A DNA stretch of 51,668 nucleotides from a virus: the IMG/VR virus record IMGVR_UViG_3300048930_000171, positions 1 through 51,668 of that record, one strand, 5' to 3'. Of this stretch, positions 5,843 through 28,784 are shown one piece after another (the stretch's first letter is position 1; every line of letters starts with the position of its first letter). A program made the position numbers and the translations under genes. Below the pieces are notes generated by a model. The model saw only the letters and a list, made by a program, of their open reading frames with translations. It was not told the origin of the DNA and did no database searches.

Positions 5843-7435
5843 TTAGCGTGGCTTCCTTTGTGACATATGCCCCATTATCGCTTTCGGCAGGCCACGCACG
5901 CCCTTGCCCTGCCACTTCCCATCGCGCTGCTGTGCTATCGTATCGCCCTGACTCCACGCTATAACCACCGCATCGCCCCTATCAGGACTGCGCCCTAACC
6001 GCTTTTTCAGCTCATCCTTAGTCTCAAGCATCACGCCACGGCTGGTTATGCTAAAGTTGATGGAGCATAAATCCGACATCAATTTCTGGTCAGGCGGCAG
6101 GCAGATGGAGGAGCCTCCATCTTGTGAGGGGTCAAGTGCTTCCATAAAGCGCCAGTACACCTCGGCGCGCTTGCTTGCAAAGGCGTAGAGCCGGTCTTTA
6201 GACCGCTTCGTGCTTTTCTCCGCACCCTTATGCGCCTTCGCATCTATCCCATTATCCAGCAGGTGCTTCACCACTCCCCCGCCATACCCCCCGCCACAGT
6301 CCACTATCGGCAGCGCACCATCACGCCTATACCGCATAACCTTCGCCGCCACATCCTGCGGATACGGTGTCTCCGAGCCGGGTATCGCCATAATCTCAGG
6401 ATAATACCCGTCATATCTCGCAGCCAGTACCGTTTCATCCGGCCCCCCCGCCGCTGGGTCAACTCCCATCGCGCACATCGGCACCCCCGGAGGCGGAGCA
6501 GGCGTCCACCTATTCTGCGCCTCCCTAACCCATGCCGTCGGTATCAACTGATTCTCGCCATCCTTGCGCGCCAGCATAAAGTTACCGTCGCGCATCGCTG
6601 ACCTGTACGGCTCCTTCATCGCATCCAGCGTCGCCTTGTAATTCGGGTCGGCATACGGGTTATCATCAATGCTTGACCGTATGAACGTGCGCGACTTCGG
6701 AATAATCAGCCGCTTCGTCCCATCCGGTTTATATCCATCCTCTATCGGGTCAGGACTGGATACCTCCACATCCTTCCCATCCTTATCAGTTACAAACCAG
6801 CGTAGCTCACCATCCTTCGCAGGATTATGATGTGTCGGGTCAAGCCACGGCCTGAACATTCCAATAATCCAGTCCCCCTGCGTACTCACCGGCGGATTGC
6901 TTGCAAAGACGGTGCGCACGCGCTGCCCAGGCGTACTCGTGCGATTCCACGTCATGATAAACCGCACCTGGTCCTCACGAAAGTTCACAACCTCGTCAAA
7001 GCCCTTAAGGTCATGCTCCTGCCCCTGCCAGTTAAGCTCATCCCCAGGGTTCGCACACGCACCATACTGTATAAACCGCCCGTCCTTCGTTTTCATGCTC
7101 GGCGGGCTACTCCCATTAAAGCCATCCCGCGTACCATAAAACTTAATCATCTTGTCAATAAGGTCGGTAAGCTCGGTGTATTGAGGGCGCATAATCAGGC
7201 TCTTAAGGTGCGCCGTCAGCGCCAGCCCTACAAGGAGCGCACTCTTACCACCACTCGCCATCCCCCCATACAACATCAAGTCAGCAGGGCTATAATACGC
7301 TACCGTCTGCGGCCCCGGACTCGGTATAAAGCACTGCTTTACCCCCTTGCTCGCACTCAACATCTCCGCGCGCTTCTTCGGGTCAGCCTTCAATAACTGC
7401 TCATACAACTCATCAACCGAGATTAACTCAGACAT
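5843..7435 (-). CDS. terL: Terminase large subunit
   Basis: The product has 530 residues. The N-terminal packaging ATPase has a Walker A-type loop at about residues 57-65 (GGMASGGKS), a Walker B with following glutamate-type acid in LKGFDEVVNF, and SNPP in the coupling region. The C-terminal RNase H-like nuclease has GVDPAAGGPDETV and VDCGGGYGGGVV, then a late acidic segment near DRGDAVVIAW. It cuts and pumps concatemeric DNA into the capsid through the portal. Its start lies inside the 3' end of the methyltransferase fragment, eight bases of overlap, with GAGG about ten bases upstream of the ATG. Confidence 0.92.
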   Translation of the reverse strand: MSELISVDELYEQLLKADPKKRAEMLSASKGVKQCFIPSPGPQTVAYYSPADLMLYGGMASGGKSALLVGLALTAHLKSLIMRPQYTELTDLIDKMIKFYGTRDGFNGSSPPSMKTKDGRFIQYGACANPGDELNWQGQEHDLKGFDEVVNFREDQVRFIMTWNRTSTPGQRVRTVFASNPPVSTQGDWIIGMFRPWLDPTHHNPAKDGELRWFVTDKDGKDVEVSSPDPIEDGYKPDGTKRLIIPKSRTFIRSSIDDNPYADPNYKATLDAMKEPYRSAMRDGNFMLARKDGENQLIPTAWVREAQNRWTPAPPPGVPMCAMGVDPAAGGPDETVLAARYDGYYPEIMAIPGSETPYPQDVAAKVMRYRRDGALPIVDCGGGYGGGVVKHLLDNGIDAKAHKGAEKSTKRSKDRLYAFASKRAEVYWRFMEALDPSQDGGSSICLPPDQKLMSDLCSINFSITSRGVMLETKDELKKRLGRSPDRGDAVVIAWSQGDTIAQQRDGKWQGKGVRGLPKAIMGHMSQRKPR

Positions 7436-7815: not shown

Positions 7816-8271
7816 CTAGACGTTAGTCAATGCCTGAGACCCCATCACCCAGCGCCCAGTCGGGAGCTTAACACCAATATAAGCAACATCGGTGCCGGAA
7901 TCGGTATAGGTCAGGTCAATATCACCATCAGCCTCAGATGTGGCAACGAAATATTTTTTCGCAACAAGAGCAAGTAACGCGCCATCCGTGCCAATCGCAA
8001 GACCAGTAGAACCGCCGGTGGTCGTGAATGCTGTGCGAGCCGCGCTGCTAAACACACCAATCTCAACGCTTTCCACATAATTAATATCGGCACCATTCGC
8101 ATCCTTAAGCTGGATGGTAATGATACGCACACCCGTACCCGTATCCTCATCACCAACAGTTACAGTCGCATCCACGCACGGGCTAGTCACCTGAATGTCA
8201 TTCGATACCAATCCGTTCTGACTCGTAAGCTGCAACAGGCGGTCTTTAATTGCTATTAATCCAGCAGGCAT
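7816..8271 (-). CDS. Probable capsid decoration or head-fibre protein
   Basis: The product has 151 residues from the ATG at 8271, picked for its AAGGAG ribosome-binding site. The sequence is beta-rich with Ser/Thr/Gly/Asp, for example VTSPCVDATVTVGDEDTGTG and VRIITIQLKDANGADINYVE, and ends TGRWVMGSQALTNV. There are no catalytic motifs. It is the last gene before the strong terminator and stands among packaging genes. The composition fits a surface-exposed virion protein. I do not recognise a named family, so the call is an inference. Confidence 0.5.
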   Translation of the reverse strand: MPAGLIAIKDRLLQLTSQNGLVSNDIQVTSPCVDATVTVGDEDTGTGVRIITIQLKDANGADINYVESVEIGVFSSAARTAFTTTGGSTGLAIGTDGALLALVAKKYFVATSEADGDIDLTYTDSGTDVAYIGVKLPTGRWVMGSQALTNV

Positions 8272-13252: not shown

Positions 13253-15493
13253 TTATGTTGGTGCATACCTGTAAACAGCCGATGCCCGCGTTTTACTTTC
13301 TGAACGCTCCGCTATAATCATGTCCTGATTAAGTAGTGAGGTAATAATATCATCCATTTCGCGTGACTTATACTTGCGGAAGCGGGTGCATAGCTTGGTG
13401 CGCGTTACACCGGCATCGCCAGCCTTGCGGATAAAGTCCTGTACCTCAATGATTGCGCCTTCGTAGTCGGTTTCTGGCAATCTGTCGCCTATCAGGCTGG
13501 TCATGTAGTGGATGGACTTATCCACCAGATGCACGGCTACATCAAAGTCAGACTCGCGCATCTCTGGCACTTCTTTGTTGCGGGCAATAGCAAATATCAT
13601 GGCTATCTTAATGATGTTCTCATGCCGTCTGCCCCATAATGGTGCGGATATATCGCCGCTGTGCATCATGGCATCCTGCTCAAGTGCAAGATTCCACTGC
13701 AATTCATCGCAATCACCCCATCCGACAATCTTTGGTGTAACAGGAACGGAACCATTAGTTGCAGTGCTAAGGCTGTACTCGCCTTGAGAGAATCGCGCCC
13801 ATCCGTCAATTAAATCCTCCGGCGGCTCGGCAAAGTGATGCACGCGCCTGCGTGGAACGGGGTCAGCCTTGATTGCCATCACGCGATTTAGCTCGCCGCT
13901 TTCCACTGCATCTTTGCTCAAAGCCTTGACGTACTCCTTCTCGGTGGTCGTGCCATATACGCACAGGTTGGGATTCTCGATGGTAATGGACTCATTCAGC
14001 TTCTTGTTGGCGTAATCACCGTGGCTGTAGCTGCTACCGGATTGGCTGTAGAGTGCCATGAGCAATGTCTTTATCTTCTTGTTATGCGATGGTGCTTTTT
14101 TATCGCTGATGGATTGCAGTACCAGCCCCCACTCATCCAGCATAAGCACCTGACTTGGCCGGTCATATAGACTACGGGCAACGCCAGTATCAGATATAAC
14201 GCCATGCGCACCGCCAAACTCCACAAGTCCTGCCTCCCTTGCCAGCAGGGGAAGCTTAACGCGGCTGTGGTTCTTACCAGTTGCCGTGTTTGCCACACCC
14301 ACCAGATACAGGTTGGTGCGGGTATTGATAGGACTGGCATACCGCCTGCCAAATACGGCACCAGCCCATGCCAGAACGTGGAGCAGGGCGAGCGTAGGCA
14401 TAGGGAACATGGCATCGGAGCATATCCAACGCACGGTATCGCCAATCAGCCCTTCCAGCTTGAGCGGGTCAAACTCCTTGTCTTTAGCCTTGCGCGCCGG
14501 TGCAGGCTTAGGCTCCGCCTTTTCCTCGGCGTGAATTACCCGTGATTTATCCGTGAACTTTTCTGCAAACGCATCGGCAAGGGATGTGTCGGCTTCAGGG
14601 CGGATGATAGGCTCAGGCCGCCAGCCATTTAAGCGTGCCTGGTCAAAGAGCGTGGCAATGGTAATGCCTTCATTGCGGAATGACTGCCACTTTCGCCACA
14701 TCTCCTTACCATTATACTTAGGGCTACCGGAACTCCATGAATCCCATATCTCAAATCCTTCTGAGCCAAATTCATCTGACAAAGCCATAGCCATCTCAAC
14801 CCATAGCCAATAGTCGTCATTCGGGACATAGCTCAACGCCTCAGCCGCCTCACCCTTTGGATTGTCAGCTTGAAATACCGGCCTCGCCTTTGGCTTGGGC
14901 ATCGGCTTCTCAGATAATGGCACAGGCTCAGATAGCCTCCATTCCGGCTCAGCCAACGGCTCTCCTTTGGGGGAATATGGCAGGATGAACTGGTTGCCGC
15001 AGCCTCCCATCGGCACATGGTCTTGCTTTGGGAACACCTCCACTTCCTTCTTGGCAACCCCGCCGGTGCCGTTCTTGTAGCCAATCTCCGCCATTGCATC
15101 GGTAAGCAGCTTGCGCACGCTGTACGCATCTTGCGGCTCATCCCATATCGCTACAAGGTGTATGCCCTTGCCGCCACTGGATACAAAGCCATCGAAGTAA
15201 ACGCCATGCGGCTTGAGCGTGTCATATAGAAGCTGGGCGGCTTCCAGCATATCATCCCACGCCGTTTCGCCCTTGTGTGAGTCAAGGTCAAGCAGGGCAA
15301 GGCGCGTAGTGGATTCCCCTTCCTTGATAGGGCATACGCCGCGCAGTTGCTTGCCATCTAAATGCGCCTGTATGCGCTCGCTGGTAAGCGGCTGGTCACG
15401 CTTCCAGATGGATGCCCCGTCAGGGGCTTTGATAGCTGTGATGTCGGTTCTTACGCGGTCAAGTATAGGACGCAGATGGTCTATGGTGTGCAT
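13253..15493 (-). CDS. Primase-helicase (AEP primase + PriCT + DUF3987-type ATPase)
   Basis: The product has 746 residues. Residues 60-160 hold an archaeo-eukaryotic-type primase core: DLD at 69-71 (ALLDLDSHKG), SSGGKGIHL at 105-113 and EVFPKQ at 152-157. Residues about 210-290 match a PriCT-2 domain (EALSYVPNDDYWLWVEMAMA, WDSWSSGSPKYNG). The C-terminal half has the ATPase pattern GVANTATGKNHS near residue 400, QVLMLDEWG as Walker B, and a winged-helix-like end. It should make primers and unwind DNA for replication. It follows the regulator gene after four bases, so it is controlled with it. Confidence 0.85.
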   Translation of the reverse strand: MHTIDHLRPILDRVRTDITAIKAPDGASIWKRDQPLTSERIQAHLDGKQLRGVCPIKEGESTTRLALLDLDSHKGETAWDDMLEAAQLLYDTLKPHGVYFDGFVSSGGKGIHLVAIWDEPQDAYSVRKLLTDAMAEIGYKNGTGGVAKKEVEVFPKQDHVPMGGCGNQFILPYSPKGEPLAEPEWRLSEPVPLSEKPMPKPKARPVFQADNPKGEAAEALSYVPNDDYWLWVEMAMALSDEFGSEGFEIWDSWSSGSPKYNGKEMWRKWQSFRNEGITIATLFDQARLNGWRPEPIIRPEADTSLADAFAEKFTDKSRVIHAEEKAEPKPAPARKAKDKEFDPLKLEGLIGDTVRWICSDAMFPMPTLALLHVLAWAGAVFGRRYASPINTRTNLYLVGVANTATGKNHSRVKLPLLAREAGLVEFGGAHGVISDTGVARSLYDRPSQVLMLDEWGLVLQSISDKKAPSHNKKIKTLLMALYSQSGSSYSHGDYANKKLNESITIENPNLCVYGTTTEKEYVKALSKDAVESGELNRVMAIKADPVPRRRVHHFAEPPEDLIDGWARFSQGEYSLSTATNGSVPVTPKIVGWGDCDELQWNLALEQDAMMHSGDISAPLWGRRHENIIKIAMIFAIARNKEVPEMRESDFDVAVHLVDKSIHYMTSLIGDRLPETDYEGAIIEVQDFIRKAGDAGVTRTKLCTRFRKYKSREMDDIITSLLNQDMIIAERSESKTRASAVYRYAPT

Positions 15494-21332: not shown

Positions 21333-21530
21333 ATGGCAAATATGTTTAGCCCGCACGAAAAAGCGCAGCTAATGCGGCTTATTGAAAAGCTGCCAACTAC
21401 TACCAAATGCACGGACTGCCGTAACTATGATTGTGGCATGTGCCAGCTTGCAGGCGAGATGATACCGCAAGATGTGTTGCCAGTGGGATGCGAGCAGTGG
21501 GAGTTCTCGCCTGAGAGCATTCCGTTTTAG
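21333..21530 (+). CDS. Small cysteine-cluster protein, probable zinc binding
   Basis: The product has 65 residues. A helical start (FSPHEKAQLMRLIEKLP) is followed by KCTDCRNYDCGMCQLA and a later VGCEQWEF. Five cysteines in a CxxCx4CxxC layout plus one indicate a zinc site. Such proteins recur at the ends of phage replication modules. Its stop codon overlaps the RusA stop on the other strand by two bases. Confidence 0.65.
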   Translation: MANMFSPHEKAQLMRLIEKLPTTTKCTDCRNYDCGMCQLAGEMIPQDVLPVGCEQWEFSPESIPF

Positions 21531-21883
21531 AGCGTGACTATTTCAACTTCAACACCGCTACCTACGCTCTTGCCTACCATATCAGCCCACTCGGTAATAG
21601 TGCGGCCAATGTACCTGTCATCCAGAATCACGCCCCTGGCGACTAAGAAATCAGTTGTTGCTTTTGCATAATTCTGCTCATCCCTGATTCGTTTGTCTGG
21701 GCGAGCCAATGTAAAAGTTATCTGTATAGGCTTCTTTGATGTTATTGGCACATAATACTGCTCAGAAAGGGCTAGCGATGCCTGGACAATCCACTCTTTG
21801 TATCTCTCGCTTTTGAAGCGCCTTGCCTTGCCAGAGTAAAGGCCGTTAGTTGACGGCGGAAATGGCAACCACAAGGAAATCAT
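21527..21883 (-). CDS. rusA: RusA-like Holliday junction resolvase
   Basis: The product has 118 residues from the ATG at 21883, in an ATGA overlap with the previous gene; this start gives the typical ISLWLPFPPSTNGLY opening. The active-site stretch reads RIRDEQNYAKATTDFLVARG and VILDDRYI. Aligned by eye with E. coli RusA (RDLDNxxK...DD), the first Asp, the Lys and the later DD are present, but the second catalytic Asp is Gln here. It would cut four-way junctions made by the recombination genes if active. It is the last gene of the leftward block. Confidence 0.8.
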   Translation of the reverse strand: MISLWLPFPPSTNGLYSGKARRFKSERYKEWIVQASLALSEQYYVPITSKKPIQITFTLARPDKRIRDEQNYAKATTDFLVARGVILDDRYIGRTITEWADMVGKSVGSGVEVEIVTL

Positions 21884-22230
21884 ATCACCCATGCCGGACT
21901 GTCCTTAATCTGTTCCATGCCTATGTTTACGCGGATTCTATTAGCCGCCTGCATGACCTGAGAAAGTCCTGTGGGTTTACCGTCTAGCTCCCATGAGATT
22001 CCGTCACACATGATTATCTCTTGAAGTCTGTCACCTAAAAGGTTCTTTGCTATCACGATAGGGTTAGGCTTTGATTTAGGGGTGTGTTGAAGGGCGTTGT
22101 CCGACCTAGCGGCCTCAGCATATTTCTTGTCCTTATTTTTAAGCGCGGCTTTCTGGCCTGACTTCTTGCGGATTTCCTTCATCTGCGCGTCACTGAATAG
22201 CATACGCCGTTTCTTGAACTGTATAATCAC
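21880..22230 (-). CDS. Hypothetical basic protein upstream of rusA
   Basis: The product has 116 residues from a GTG at 22230 that overlaps the previous stop (GTGA) and has GGAGG before it. The N-terminus is strongly basic (IIQFKKRRMLF, IRKKSGQKAALKNKDKKYAE). The C-terminal half (LLGDRLQEIIMCDGISWELD, LSQVMQAANRIRVN) is a compact domain. DNA binding is plausible from charge and from the place next to RusA. No family is recognised. Confidence 0.6.
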   Translation of the reverse strand: MIIQFKKRRMLFSDAQMKEIRKKSGQKAALKNKDKKYAEAARSDNALQHTPKSKPNPIVIAKNLLGDRLQEIIMCDGISWELDGKPTGLSQVMQAANRIRVNIGMEQIKDSPAWVI

Positions 22231-23180: not shown

Positions 23181-23483
23181 TTAAGAGCCATAGCCATAGC
23201 CATCGCCAGAGCCAGAGCCATAGCCATAGCCATCGCCAGAGCCATCGCCATCGCCATAGCCATCGCCAGAGCCATAGCCAGAGCCATAGCCAGAGCCATC
23301 GCCATAGCCATAGCCATCGCCAGAGCCATCGCCATAGCCATAGCCATCGCCAGAGCCATCGCCAGAGCCAGAGCCAGAGCCATCGCCAGAGCCAGAGCCA
23401 GAGCCAGAGCCATAGCCATAGCCATAGCCATCGCTAATTGAATGGCCGTGATGGCTATTTTTTGTCTTCAACAAATTTGGCAT
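23181..23483 (-). CDS. [DYS]G dipeptide-repeat protein
   Basis: From the ATG at 23483 a 100-residue frame gives a short basic start (MPNLLKTKNSHHGHSIS), then exactly 41 dipeptides DG, YG or SG, and a stop right after the repeat. It overlaps the preceding gene by 29 bases. GCGGA lies about nine bases before the ATG. The other two minus-strand frames give (MA/LA)n running on into the next gene, or a stop-interrupted frame. Gly-Tyr-Ser low-complexity tails occur in phage proteins next to DUF6948-like genes. Expression from this frame is probable, not proven. Confidence 0.5.
   Translation of the reverse strand: MPNLLKTKNSHHGHSISDGYGYGYGSGSGSGSGDGSGSGSGDGSGDGYGYGDGSGDGYGYGDGSGYGSGYGSGDGYGDGDGSGDGYGYGSGSGDGYGYGS
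23187..23432. repeat. 41 tandem hexamers GCCA(TA/TC/GA)
   Basis: On the plus strand the hexamers GCCATA, GCCATC and GCCAGA follow each other without a break for 246 bases. Only the last two bases vary and they do so in a codon-wise manner, since the minus strand reads [D/Y/S]-Gly. Repeat-length change by slippage is likely. Confidence 0.9.
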
Positions 23484-23838
23484 AAGTTTTTTCCGCTTCT
23501 TTCGTTGTGGGGATGTATTCGATTGCATTAGTGAGTGCGATTTCACCTGTTTCATTGAGCCTGCCGCCTTTAATTCCGCTAACAGCAACCGCAGATAGCG
23601 ACAAACCGCCGCCTTCCCATTTCCATAAACGCAAAGCGTTTTCTAATTTGCACTCCATGCTATTTTCAGGATTAATCCATGTCACATCCCCGATATGAAC
23701 GCCTGCGCTATAGGTGCGAACTAAGCACCGCTTGCCAAGCATTGGGTGGCTACTTGTCTCTTGTCTTTGTGGCTTAAGGCCGCAGGCAAGTTTTGCGATT
23801 TCCTTTATTTGGCCGTAAGTTAAATCATCTATATCCAT
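23455..23838 (-). CDS. DUF6948-like protein
   Basis: The product has 127 residues from the ATG at 23838 with AAAGGAAA upstream. The core reads LGKRCLVRTYSAGVHIGDVT, LENALRLWKWEGGGLSLSAV and AVSGIKGGRL...ALTNAIEYIPTT. This is the RTYSAGVxxG...NARRLWxWxGAxSLSxxAxxG...ExIxxxP pattern of DUF6948, a small phage and bacterial family of unknown role. It ends at a run of six A (GAC AAA AAA TAG) just before the hexamer repeat, so slippage could add a repeat tail. Confidence 0.7.
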   Translation of the reverse strand: MDIDDLTYGQIKEIAKLACGLKPQRQETSSHPMLGKRCLVRTYSAGVHIGDVTWINPENSMECKLENALRLWKWEGGGLSLSAVAVSGIKGGRLNETGEIALTNAIEYIPTTKEAEKTYAKFVEDKK

Positions 23839-23892
23839 TTTGTTTCCTTTCAAAAGTTGCTGGTTTTGAGCAGAGCCAGTGTGCTTTAGTGG

Positions 23893-24201
23893 TTAGGCGG
23901 CTTCGGATGGCGATTGCGAATCTCCGCTGGTGTGGTTCGATACCATGCCAGTGCCAGTTAGCTCTTTTACAATCCACATTACGGATTCTTCTAACGATGT
24001 GAGGGCAAGTGAATTGTAACGCCCACCGCATACCTTTGCGTAAAGCTGTTCCATTTCCACGGCTTTGTTTTTGATTTCATCATGCAATGCTTTCTCATCT
24101 TCACTCAATGCACGATAACGAGGCCGAAAGCGGCTATGTTTAATTTCACCCGCTTGTCTTGCGTCTAGGTTGCCTTGAAATACGTTTTCTTTATTTTCCA
24201 T
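23893..24201 (-). CDS. Candidate Acb2/Tad1-hook-like protein (cyclic-nucleotide sponge)
   Basis: The product has 102 residues from the ATG at 24201 with AGGAGAG upstream. Residues about 25-85 read FRPRYRALSEDEKALHDEIK, KAVEMEQLYAKV and RYNSLALTSLEESVMWIVKE. The order is R-x-L-(S/T)-x-x-E-x-x-L-x-x-x-I-K, a second helix, R-x-x-S-x-x-x-T-x-L-x-x-x-x-M. It matches the helical hook of Acb2 and Tad1 proteins, which bind CBASS or Thoeris signal nucleotides. The C-terminal 20 residues are a polar tail. Assignment is by eye, so moderate. Confidence 0.55.
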   Translation of the reverse strand: MENKENVFQGNLDARQAGEIKHSRFRPRYRALSEDEKALHDEIKNKAVEMEQLYAKVCGGRYNSLALTSLEESVMWIVKELTGTGMVSNHTSGDSQSPSEAA

Positions 24202-24478: not shown

Positions 24479-24760
24479 TCACTGCTTCTCCCTCTGTGCC
24501 AGTGTACTCGCCGCCACAGATTCAGCGTTTCTTTTAGCATCATTAAGCTCATGACCAGCCAGTGATTGCGCTTCCATCAGCTTTGAAATGGCCGCGCTTA
24601 CAATATGCTGGTTGGCATGTATGTAGCCCTGCATGAGTTCTAGCTGCGCGTTCCAATCGCTGAACGTCCGGTTCATGGTGCGGAGTTTGTCTATTACTTC
24701 ATCAGCACCGCCGAGCAACCCACCCGCTTTGCTGGCAACGGCTTTACTGGTTTTCTTCAT
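24479..24760 (-). CDS. Small helical protein
   Basis: The product has 93 residues with AAAGGA before the ATG at 24760, which lies inside the end of the HTH gene. It has a basic start (MKKTSKAVASKAGGLLGG), then long helices (EVIDKLRTMNRTFSDWNAQ, QSLAGHELNDAKRNAESVAA). No family is recognised. It is co-transcribed with the regulator. Confidence 0.55.
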   Translation of the reverse strand: MKKTSKAVASKAGGLLGGADEVIDKLRTMNRTFSDWNAQLELMQGYIHANQHIVSAAISKLMEAQSLAGHELNDAKRNAESVAASTLAQREKQ

Positions 24761-24938
24761 AGGTAAAATCCTTTGCTGTTACTTTGCCATTAGAGGCTGT
24801 TTCTATTTTCCGTATTGTCTTTAGTGTAATGGATTTATTAGTTAGTGCATGGTAAATTGTTTGCCTAGAAACACCGCACATATCAGCGAATTGCTCCCAT
24901 GTAAGGCGGTTTTTCTTGATGTAATCATTTAATTTCAT
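24744..24938 (-). CDS. Cro-like helix-turn-helix regulator
   Basis: The product has 64 residues from the ATG at 24938; a start three codons earlier is possible. The HTH reads TWEQFADMCGVSRQTIYHAL with the recognition helix in SRQTIYHAL. The protein is little more than the DNA-binding domain, as in Cro or YdaS types. It leads the leftward block that ends with rusA and lies opposite a strong rightward promoter. It probably controls both promoters. Confidence 0.8.
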   Translation of the reverse strand: MKLNDYIKKNRLTWEQFADMCGVSRQTIYHALTNKSITLKTIRKIETASNGKVTAKDFTYEENQ

Positions 24939-24965
24939 AAAGTACATTTTTCTGTATTTTGTGTG

Positions 24966-25591: not shown

Positions 25592-25746
25592 ACAAGGATA
25601 TTGTGAGCATATACAGAAATAACAAAGATGTGTGCCTAGATTTTTATGACTACCTGATGGCTAGCGTTTCAACCGGTGTGAAGCTAGAACTGTCACAGGC
25701 TATGGTAAAATTAATGGATAGCGAAAGGAAAAACGATGACCAATGA
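25588..25746 (+). CDS. 52-residue early protein
   Basis: This ORF is coupled to its neighbours, with an ATGA overlap at the start and an 11-base overlap at the end. The sequence (NKDIVSIYRNNKDVCLDFY, then GVKLELSQAMVKLMDSERK) is helical. No family is recognised. Confidence 0.55.
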   Translation: MNKDIVSIYRNNKDVCLDFYDYLMASVSTGVKLELSQAMVKLMDSERKNDDQ

Positions 25747-26056
25747 AACCGAACTGCGGGAGTGCCCGTTTTGTGGTCGTGAACCAGACATCCGCGATTG
25801 CCCTGACAGGGATGAACGTTATTGGCGTGTGTCGTGCTTGAATACTGCCTGTTCCATAGCCGTTGCGGTCAACAAAAGGACTCAAGCCGAAGCCATTGCC
25901 GCATGGAATAACCGCCCCAAGCCCCCTGCTGCGGTGGGGGATGTGAATAAAAATAAACCAACACTGGCCGATAGAGGAATATCTCAAGCTATAGTGGTGA
26001 TAATTGGGGTTGTGGCAACGCTATGCGCTGCTATTTATTATGGGAGAGGATTATGA
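25736..26056 (+). CDS. Lar-like zinc ribbon fused to a C-terminal membrane span
   Basis: The product has 106 residues. Residues 1-60 have the Lar-type pattern RECPFCGREPDIRDC, WRVSCLNTAC and TQAEAIAAWNNRP, with two CxxC-like pairs for zinc. Lar proteins ease type I restriction in lambdoid phages, while many phage homologues have untested roles. A linker leads to a hydrophobic segment at about residues 83-102 (AIVVIIGVVATLCAAIYYG), which tethers it to the membrane, unusual for Lar. Confidence 0.7.
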   Translation: MTNETELRECPFCGREPDIRDCPDRDERYWRVSCLNTACSIAVAVNKRTQAEAIAAWNNRPKPPAAVGDVNKNKPTLADRGISQAIVVIIGVVATLCAAIYYGRGL

Positions 26057-28031: not shown

Positions 28032-28784
28032 ATGCTATCATTTCACAACGAGCAATCAACTAAAGATAAATACCTGAGTCGTGTACGCGCGCATCAGAAA
28101 GCAGATAACCTCATTCGAGGTACTGGATGGGAGGGTGGCAAGGGGTGTGCTGTTGGATGCACATTGGAAAATTACGATCATTCACAATACCCTGTAGAGC
28201 TTGGGATACCAGAATGGCTTGCCAGAGTTGAAGATACATTATTTGAAGGCATGAGCGAGAAAAAATCACACACATGGCCTGAGAAGTTCCTTGAAGCTAT
28301 ACCGCTTGGAATAACTGATGAGCAATTTGAACGCAAGGTAAAAGCACCATTCCTTATTATCGTTCTTGAAAGTGCGCTTACGTCTTTTGACCATGATAAA
28401 TTTCCTGATGTTAAGAAATGCCTTGATGCATCAATCTCGCTTTGGAGGCGCGAAGATATAGGAAGCGATGATTGGAATAAGGCAGCAGCATGGGCAGCAG
28501 AGGCAGCAGAGGCAGCAGCATGGGCAGCACGGGCAGCAGAGGCAGCAGCACGGGCAGCAGAGGCAGCAGCACGGGCAGCACTGGCAGCAGAGGCAGCAGC
28601 ACTGGCAGCAGCACGGGCAGCACTGGCAGCAGAGGCAGCAGCACTGGCAGCAGCACGGGCAGCAGCACTGGCAGCAGCATGGGCAGCAGAGGCAGCAGCA
28701 TGGGCAGCAGAGGCAGCAAAATACGATTATTTCGCTGATGAGCTTCTGAGGATGCTTAGTAATCTAACAACCGATAAGGAGTAA
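28032..28784 (+). CDS. Phage protein with a long Ala-rich helical repeat
   Basis: The product has 250 residues. Residues 1-150 are a globular domain (SFHNEQSTKDKYLSRVRAH, GWEGGKGCAVGCTLENYDHS, PEWLARVEDTLFEGM). Residues about 151-229 consist of AA(A)X units with X = W, E, R or L (AAAWAAEAAEAAAWAARAAE, and so on), predicting a long amphipathic helix with charged and aromatic edges. A short tail follows (YDYFADELLRMLSN). Similar GWEGGKGCAVGC...WAAxAAxAA proteins exist in other phages without known function. It is a cassette flanked by 19-bp direct repeats. Confidence 0.75.
   Translation: MLSFHNEQSTKDKYLSRVRAHQKADNLIRGTGWEGGKGCAVGCTLENYDHSQYPVELGIPEWLARVEDTLFEGMSEKKSHTWPEKFLEAIPLGITDEQFERKVKAPFLIIVLESALTSFDHDKFPDVKKCLDASISLWRREDIGSDDWNKAAAWAAEAAEAAAWAARAAEAAARAAEAAARAALAAEAAALAAARAALAAEAAALAAARAAALAAAWAAEAAAWAAEAAKYDYFADELLRMLSNLTTDKE
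28482..28718 (+). repeat. Trinucleotide-type repeat (GCAGCAx) coding for poly-Ala units
   Basis: About 237 bases consist of GCAGCA or GCAGCAGCA followed by TGG, GAG, CGG or CTG. Nearly all Ala codons are GCA, so the array is recent or kept uniform by slippage. The spacer codons differ only at the first two bases, as in the hexamer array at 23187-23432. Confidence 0.85.
28766..28784. repeat. 19-bp direct repeat, right copy
   Basis: This copy encodes the last codons and stop of the Ala-rich gene (TTDKE) and supplies the ribosome-binding site of the next gene. It is identical to 28010-28028. Confidence 0.85.

Follow-up and report, generated by a model that had tools for sequence, protein, structure and literature searches.

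A compact Acb2/Tad1-type hairpin protein and likely immune-signal sponge encoded by a podovirus-like phage

The window analysed here is a viral record of 51,668 bases whose head-tail adaptor, terminase, major head and virion protein genes are podovirus-like. It encodes a 102-residue protein that is a well-supported compact addition to the already known Acb2/Tad1 hairpin sponge family. The protein likely acts as a signal sponge, and we put the probability that it is a compact Acb2-type sponge sequestering cyclic nucleotide immune signals at about 80%. The directly observed basis for this reading is the family assignment, the ranking of its fold, the conservation of its pocket-equivalent residues and the spread of its relatives over unrelated phage gene contexts.

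Reading frame and family assignment

The gene and the parts of its product are as follows.

23893..24201, minus strand: candidate sponge gene, compact Acb2/Tad1-hairpin protein of 102 amino acids (PF24729, PDB profile and Foldseek matches, ribosome-binding site)
23965..24117, minus strand: predicted hairpin domain, residues 29-79, with Y29, K44, R61, T68 and W76
24124..24165, minus strand: N-terminal arm, residues 13-26, with a conserved D13-x-R15-Q16 and an RFRP motif, outside the Pfam domain (conservation counts)
23893..23955, minus strand: C-terminal tail after T82, 20 residues and the stop codon, lacking in almost every relative

The frame opens with an ATG at 24201, which is preceded by a good Shine-Dalgarno sequence (AAAGGAGAGTGAGA), and its stop codon ends at 23893, giving the product MENKENVFQGNLDARQAGEIKHSRFRPRYRALSEDEKALHDEIKNKAVEMEQLYAKVCGGRYNSLALTSLEESVMWIVKELTGTGMVSNHTSGDSQSPSEAA. 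An alternative in-frame GTG start two codons upstream of this ATG would give a protein of 104 amino acids. Both stretches quoted in the original prediction, which named no strand, RYRALSEDEKALHDEIK and SLALTSLEESVMWIVK, are found in this reading frame, which is real far beyond chance.

The Pfam family PF24729, "Acb2/Tad1, hairpin domain", matches residues 29-79 over profile positions 2-54 of 58 with E=7e-13 and 49 bits, the Pfam cut-off for the family being 27 bits, and it is the sole family matched in the Pfam scan. The same is true of the wider clade, as all 41 representative members of its alignment match PF24729 and no other family. A profile made from these 41 relatives, with no characterised Acb2 (neither T4 nor Pseudomonas) among them, was compared with PDB sequences and reached Pseudomonas phage Acb2 (8ixz/8h2j) at E=6e-6, Acb2 homolog 43 (9ptq) at E=0.0015 and Tad1 at E=0.004. 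A profile to which T4 Acb2 had been added finds T4 Vs.4 at 1e-11, a result that is circular and hence of no evidential use. NCBIfam gave no match for the protein, as it also gives none for T4 Acb2 itself; the PHROGs search returned weak matches to families of unknown function only, and a protein search of plasmids returned no match. Membership in the Acb2/Tad1 family, proposed originally from a helical pattern, is thus borne out by the Pfam score, by the path from the clade profile to Acb2 in the PDB and by the Foldseek ranking described below.

Predicted structure

The AlphaFold2 model has a mean pLDDT of 82.5 and places two helices at residues 34-54 and 61-82, in a block with pLDDT of 91-98. 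The model shows the Acb2 architecture of two antiparallel helices after a short N-terminal part, with helices shorter than those of T4 and Pseudomonas (Pa) Acb2. Nothing like the antiparallel N-terminal β-sheet of Tad1 is seen, as the 33 residues before helix 1 are modelled without any strand of 3 or more residues, at an N-terminal pLDDT of 57-80.

Comparison of an AlphaFold model with Acb2 and Tad1 had been proposed together with the original prediction. In a Foldseek search against 350,542 PDB chains, the best 12 matches are all Acb2 or Tad1, and the 8 of them that are Acb2 have probabilities of 0.94-0.99. Because the fold is small, these matches have E-values of 0.2-1.2, which by themselves are not significant. 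Superposition with VIA-align gives Z scores of 6.8 for Acb2 homolog 43, 6.7 for T4 Vs.4 and 6.5 for Pa-Acb2, within an Acb2 range of 6.4-6.8, but unrelated helical hairpins score up to 7.5, equal to or above Acb2, so the fold alone has no power to discriminate the family.

Pocket-equivalent residues

Residues Y29, K44, R61 and T68 align with Pa-Acb2 Y11, K26, R67 and T74, and T4 Acb2 carries Tyr, Lys, Thr and Trp in the columns of Y29, K44, T68 and W76. The cyclic-dinucleotide pocket of Acb2 has a tyrosine (Y8 in T4, Y11 in Pa) and a lysine (K26 in Pa), and R67 presumably has a pocket role as well. The independent 41-sequence alignment shows K44, R61, T68 and W76 to be invariant and Y29 to be present in at least 90% of members. 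All four pocket positions fall among the 14 conserved core positions of 56, for which the random expectation is p ~0.003, a rough figure that treats positions as independent. The presence of nucleotide-pocket residues, on which the original prediction hinged, is upheld by alignment for Y29, K44 and T68.

Mutational data from T4 Acb2 show which of these positions matter there: activity or binding is lost with Y8A and F82C, and T68M has a lowered affinity (PMC12657218, PMC12657230). These positions correspond to Y29, T82 and T68 of the protein described here, so that two of the three residues are kept. The base-stacking Phe of T4 position 82 is absent, replaced by a Thr that is nearly invariant in the clade, and at least part of the pocket therefore differs from that of T4 Acb2. 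Pa-Acb2 also has no Phe in this column, so F82 is characteristic of T4 Acb2 and not of the family as a whole.

Distribution of the clade

Relatives are found in other viral contigs and in alphaproteobacterial genomes, some of them with 60-72% identity, and in a few other places, which suggests that the host of the phage is an alphaproteobacterium. A megablast of the first 25 kb of the window against phages found no annotated relative. A pattern search for the clade found at least 353 places in viral contigs, and in genomes it is present at 57 loci, mostly in Alphaproteobacteria. One paper describes Acb2 as relatively rare and confined to particular groups of phages (PMC11722364); these counts suggest that the family of hairpin sponges is wider.

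The D13-x-R15 arm is kept in 51-52 of the 53 RFRPRYR-branch sequences and in 41/41 of another branch (STSDxRTVNN...YRVLS), but neither T4 nor Pa Acb2 has it. The C-terminal tail is far less common, as an extension of more than 5 residues past T82 occurs in 3 of 141 other homologs and in none from the two main branches. More tentatively, the compact clade with the conserved D-x-R-[QT] arm, which is frequent among phages of alphaproteobacteria, may form a sponge subfamily of its own that binds a separate set of ligands; the arm would then complete a pocket unseen in Acb2 or Tad1. With so clean a residue pattern (Y29, K44, R61, T68, T82 and the D-x-R arm), the choice of ligand can be tested directly.

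Genomic context

The surrounding genes are listed here.

24744..24947, minus strand: Cro/C1-type HTH regulator, first gene of the same-strand run (PF01381, E=9e-8; phrog_35 transcriptional repressor, E=5.5e-11)
24479..24760, minus strand: 93-amino-acid protein overlapping the HTH gene (no Pfam match)
23455..23853, minus strand: DUF6948 protein, next downstream of the candidate sponge gene (PF22253, E=4e-18)
21527..21892, minus strand: RusA Holliday-junction resolvase, last gene of the run (PF05866, E=9e-7)
25736-26056, plus strand: zinc-ribbon-like protein with a Lar restriction alleviation match (PF14354, 30.6 bits, cut-off 28.6)

The original prediction placed the gene in an accessory block led by an HTH regulator. 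A same-strand run from the HTH gene to RusA does exist and would be the basis for such a block; the candidate sponge gene is separated from the preceding gene by ~277 bases, so that it need not share the regulator's transcript. The further suggestion that neighbouring genes could be counter-defences has one weak positive, the Lar-like protein, which is a possible second counter-defence gene judging from its sequence and lies on the opposite strand, in the divergent run; the other genes scanned in the candidate's own strand run are the HTH regulator, DUF6948, RusA and proteins that match no Pfam family. The neighbours of relatives vary, including integrase, portal, terminase, tail collar and recombinase or recombination genes, and the lack of a common neighbour gene fits an accessory gene.

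Elsewhere in the window, 41 tandem 6-base AGCCAT units lie between two minus-strand genes (23186-23431) and leave several reading frames open on each strand. A 21/30-base repeat at 28480-28718, in the ORF 28032-28784, encodes an Ala-rich stretch of AAWAAEAA type, and 13253-15493 on the minus strand encodes a primase with PriCT-2 and archaeo-eukaryotic primase domains (AEP-TOTE profile, E=3e-12).

Proposed function and ligand

By analogy with Acb2, which forms a hexamer, the two-helix hairpin and short N-terminal arm would most likely form a homo-oligomer. The protein would be made during infection, and Y29 and K44 would bind the signal, a cyclic dinucleotide or cyclic ADP-ribose, between protomers, while the region of R61 and T68 may be a second site, for cyclic trinucleotides. 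The signal would be sequestered and not degraded, so that a CBASS or Thoeris-type effector would stay inactive.

Either a CBASS cyclic oligonucleotide or a Thoeris-type cADPR may be the ligand, as the spacing between the hairpin Lys and Thr, which is 24 in 96 of the aligned sequences, is close to the 25 of 9ptq, a structure titled as the complex of Acb2 homolog 43 with 3'cADPR. The same spacing is 45 in T4 Acb2 and 48 in Pa-Acb2. This difference, together with the missing base-stacking F82 of T4, would fit a sponge whose main targets are cADPR-type Thoeris signals (e.g., 3'cADPR or gcADPR) rather than the oligonucleotides of CBASS. However, ligand choice need not follow loop length and a crystal ligand need not be the sole ligand, and the binding sites of Acb2 and Tad1 are broad (PMC12043709), which counts against so specific an assignment. 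We consider it a possible but not the probable case.

Genome co-occurrence bears on the same question and gives CBASS no clear backing. Across the class, CBASS synthases (SMODS, PF18144) accompany the family in 12/41 genomes vs 7/288, a contrast drawn against a background rich in small genomes. A draw matched by order shows no enrichment, with SMODS in 2/15 family carriers vs 25/281 (p=0.64), and 8 of the 19 named Hyphomicrobiales genomes carry SMODS. Of the original prediction, the family assignment is thus supported, while CBASS would be only one possible target, given the 3'cADPR in 9ptq, a compact member of the same family, and the order-matched draw, which shows no link to CBASS synthases.

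It is also conceivable, but improbable, that the clade has reused the hairpin fold for another job, such as that of a small virion-assembly or regulatory protein. In Sinorhizobium phage Aussie, a hypothetical protein (5986-6222) that is a distant relative at ~43% identity is encoded between the genes for the head-to-tail adaptor and stopper, and a close relative (7995-8240 of its locus) lies between virion protein genes in a podovirus distantly related to the window phage. Such placement is not constant, however: the gene lies with HTH and RusA genes here and with integrase, portal, terminase or tail-collar genes elsewhere. The clade as a whole keeps the pocket-equivalent residues, and the family is above cut-off in only 16/297 genomes of one order (4/289 genomes for the class). 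That the ORF is a chance or non-functional reading frame, as its shortness might suggest, is already refuted by the match to the curated PF24729 profile, and the ribosome-binding site upstream of the ATG and the close relatives (60-72% identity) with the same domain and start region leave that idea practically no room.

Comparison with known sponges

A compact Acb2-type sponge would share different features with each of the characterised proteins. Tad1 (7uav, 8kbb, 8kbe) has the second-helix motif R...ALT..EEA.MW and the hairpin in common through PF24729, but has an N-terminal β-sheet, and the protein described here has only 33 residues before helix 1. Pseudomonas phage Acb2 (8h2j, 8ixz; p26/gp24) is alike in its helical hairpin and the aligned Y11, K26, R67 and T74, whereas its helix-helix part is ~24 residues longer, the D-x-R arm is missing and Ala takes the place of W76. 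T4 Vs.4/Acb2 (7uq2) matches at Y8, K23, T68, M75 and W76, which correspond to Y29, K44, T68, M75 and W76, but differs in a longer loop (45 vs 24), an Asp at the R61 position, F82 instead of T82 and a shorter N-terminus. Although its sequence similarity is weak (17% in the structural alignment) and it has Phe in place of W76, Acb2 homolog 43 (9ptq) shares the compact hairpin, the GR...T.LEEA motif and a spacing of 25, and superposes with an rmsd of 2.5 over 60 residues at the VIA Z of 6.8.
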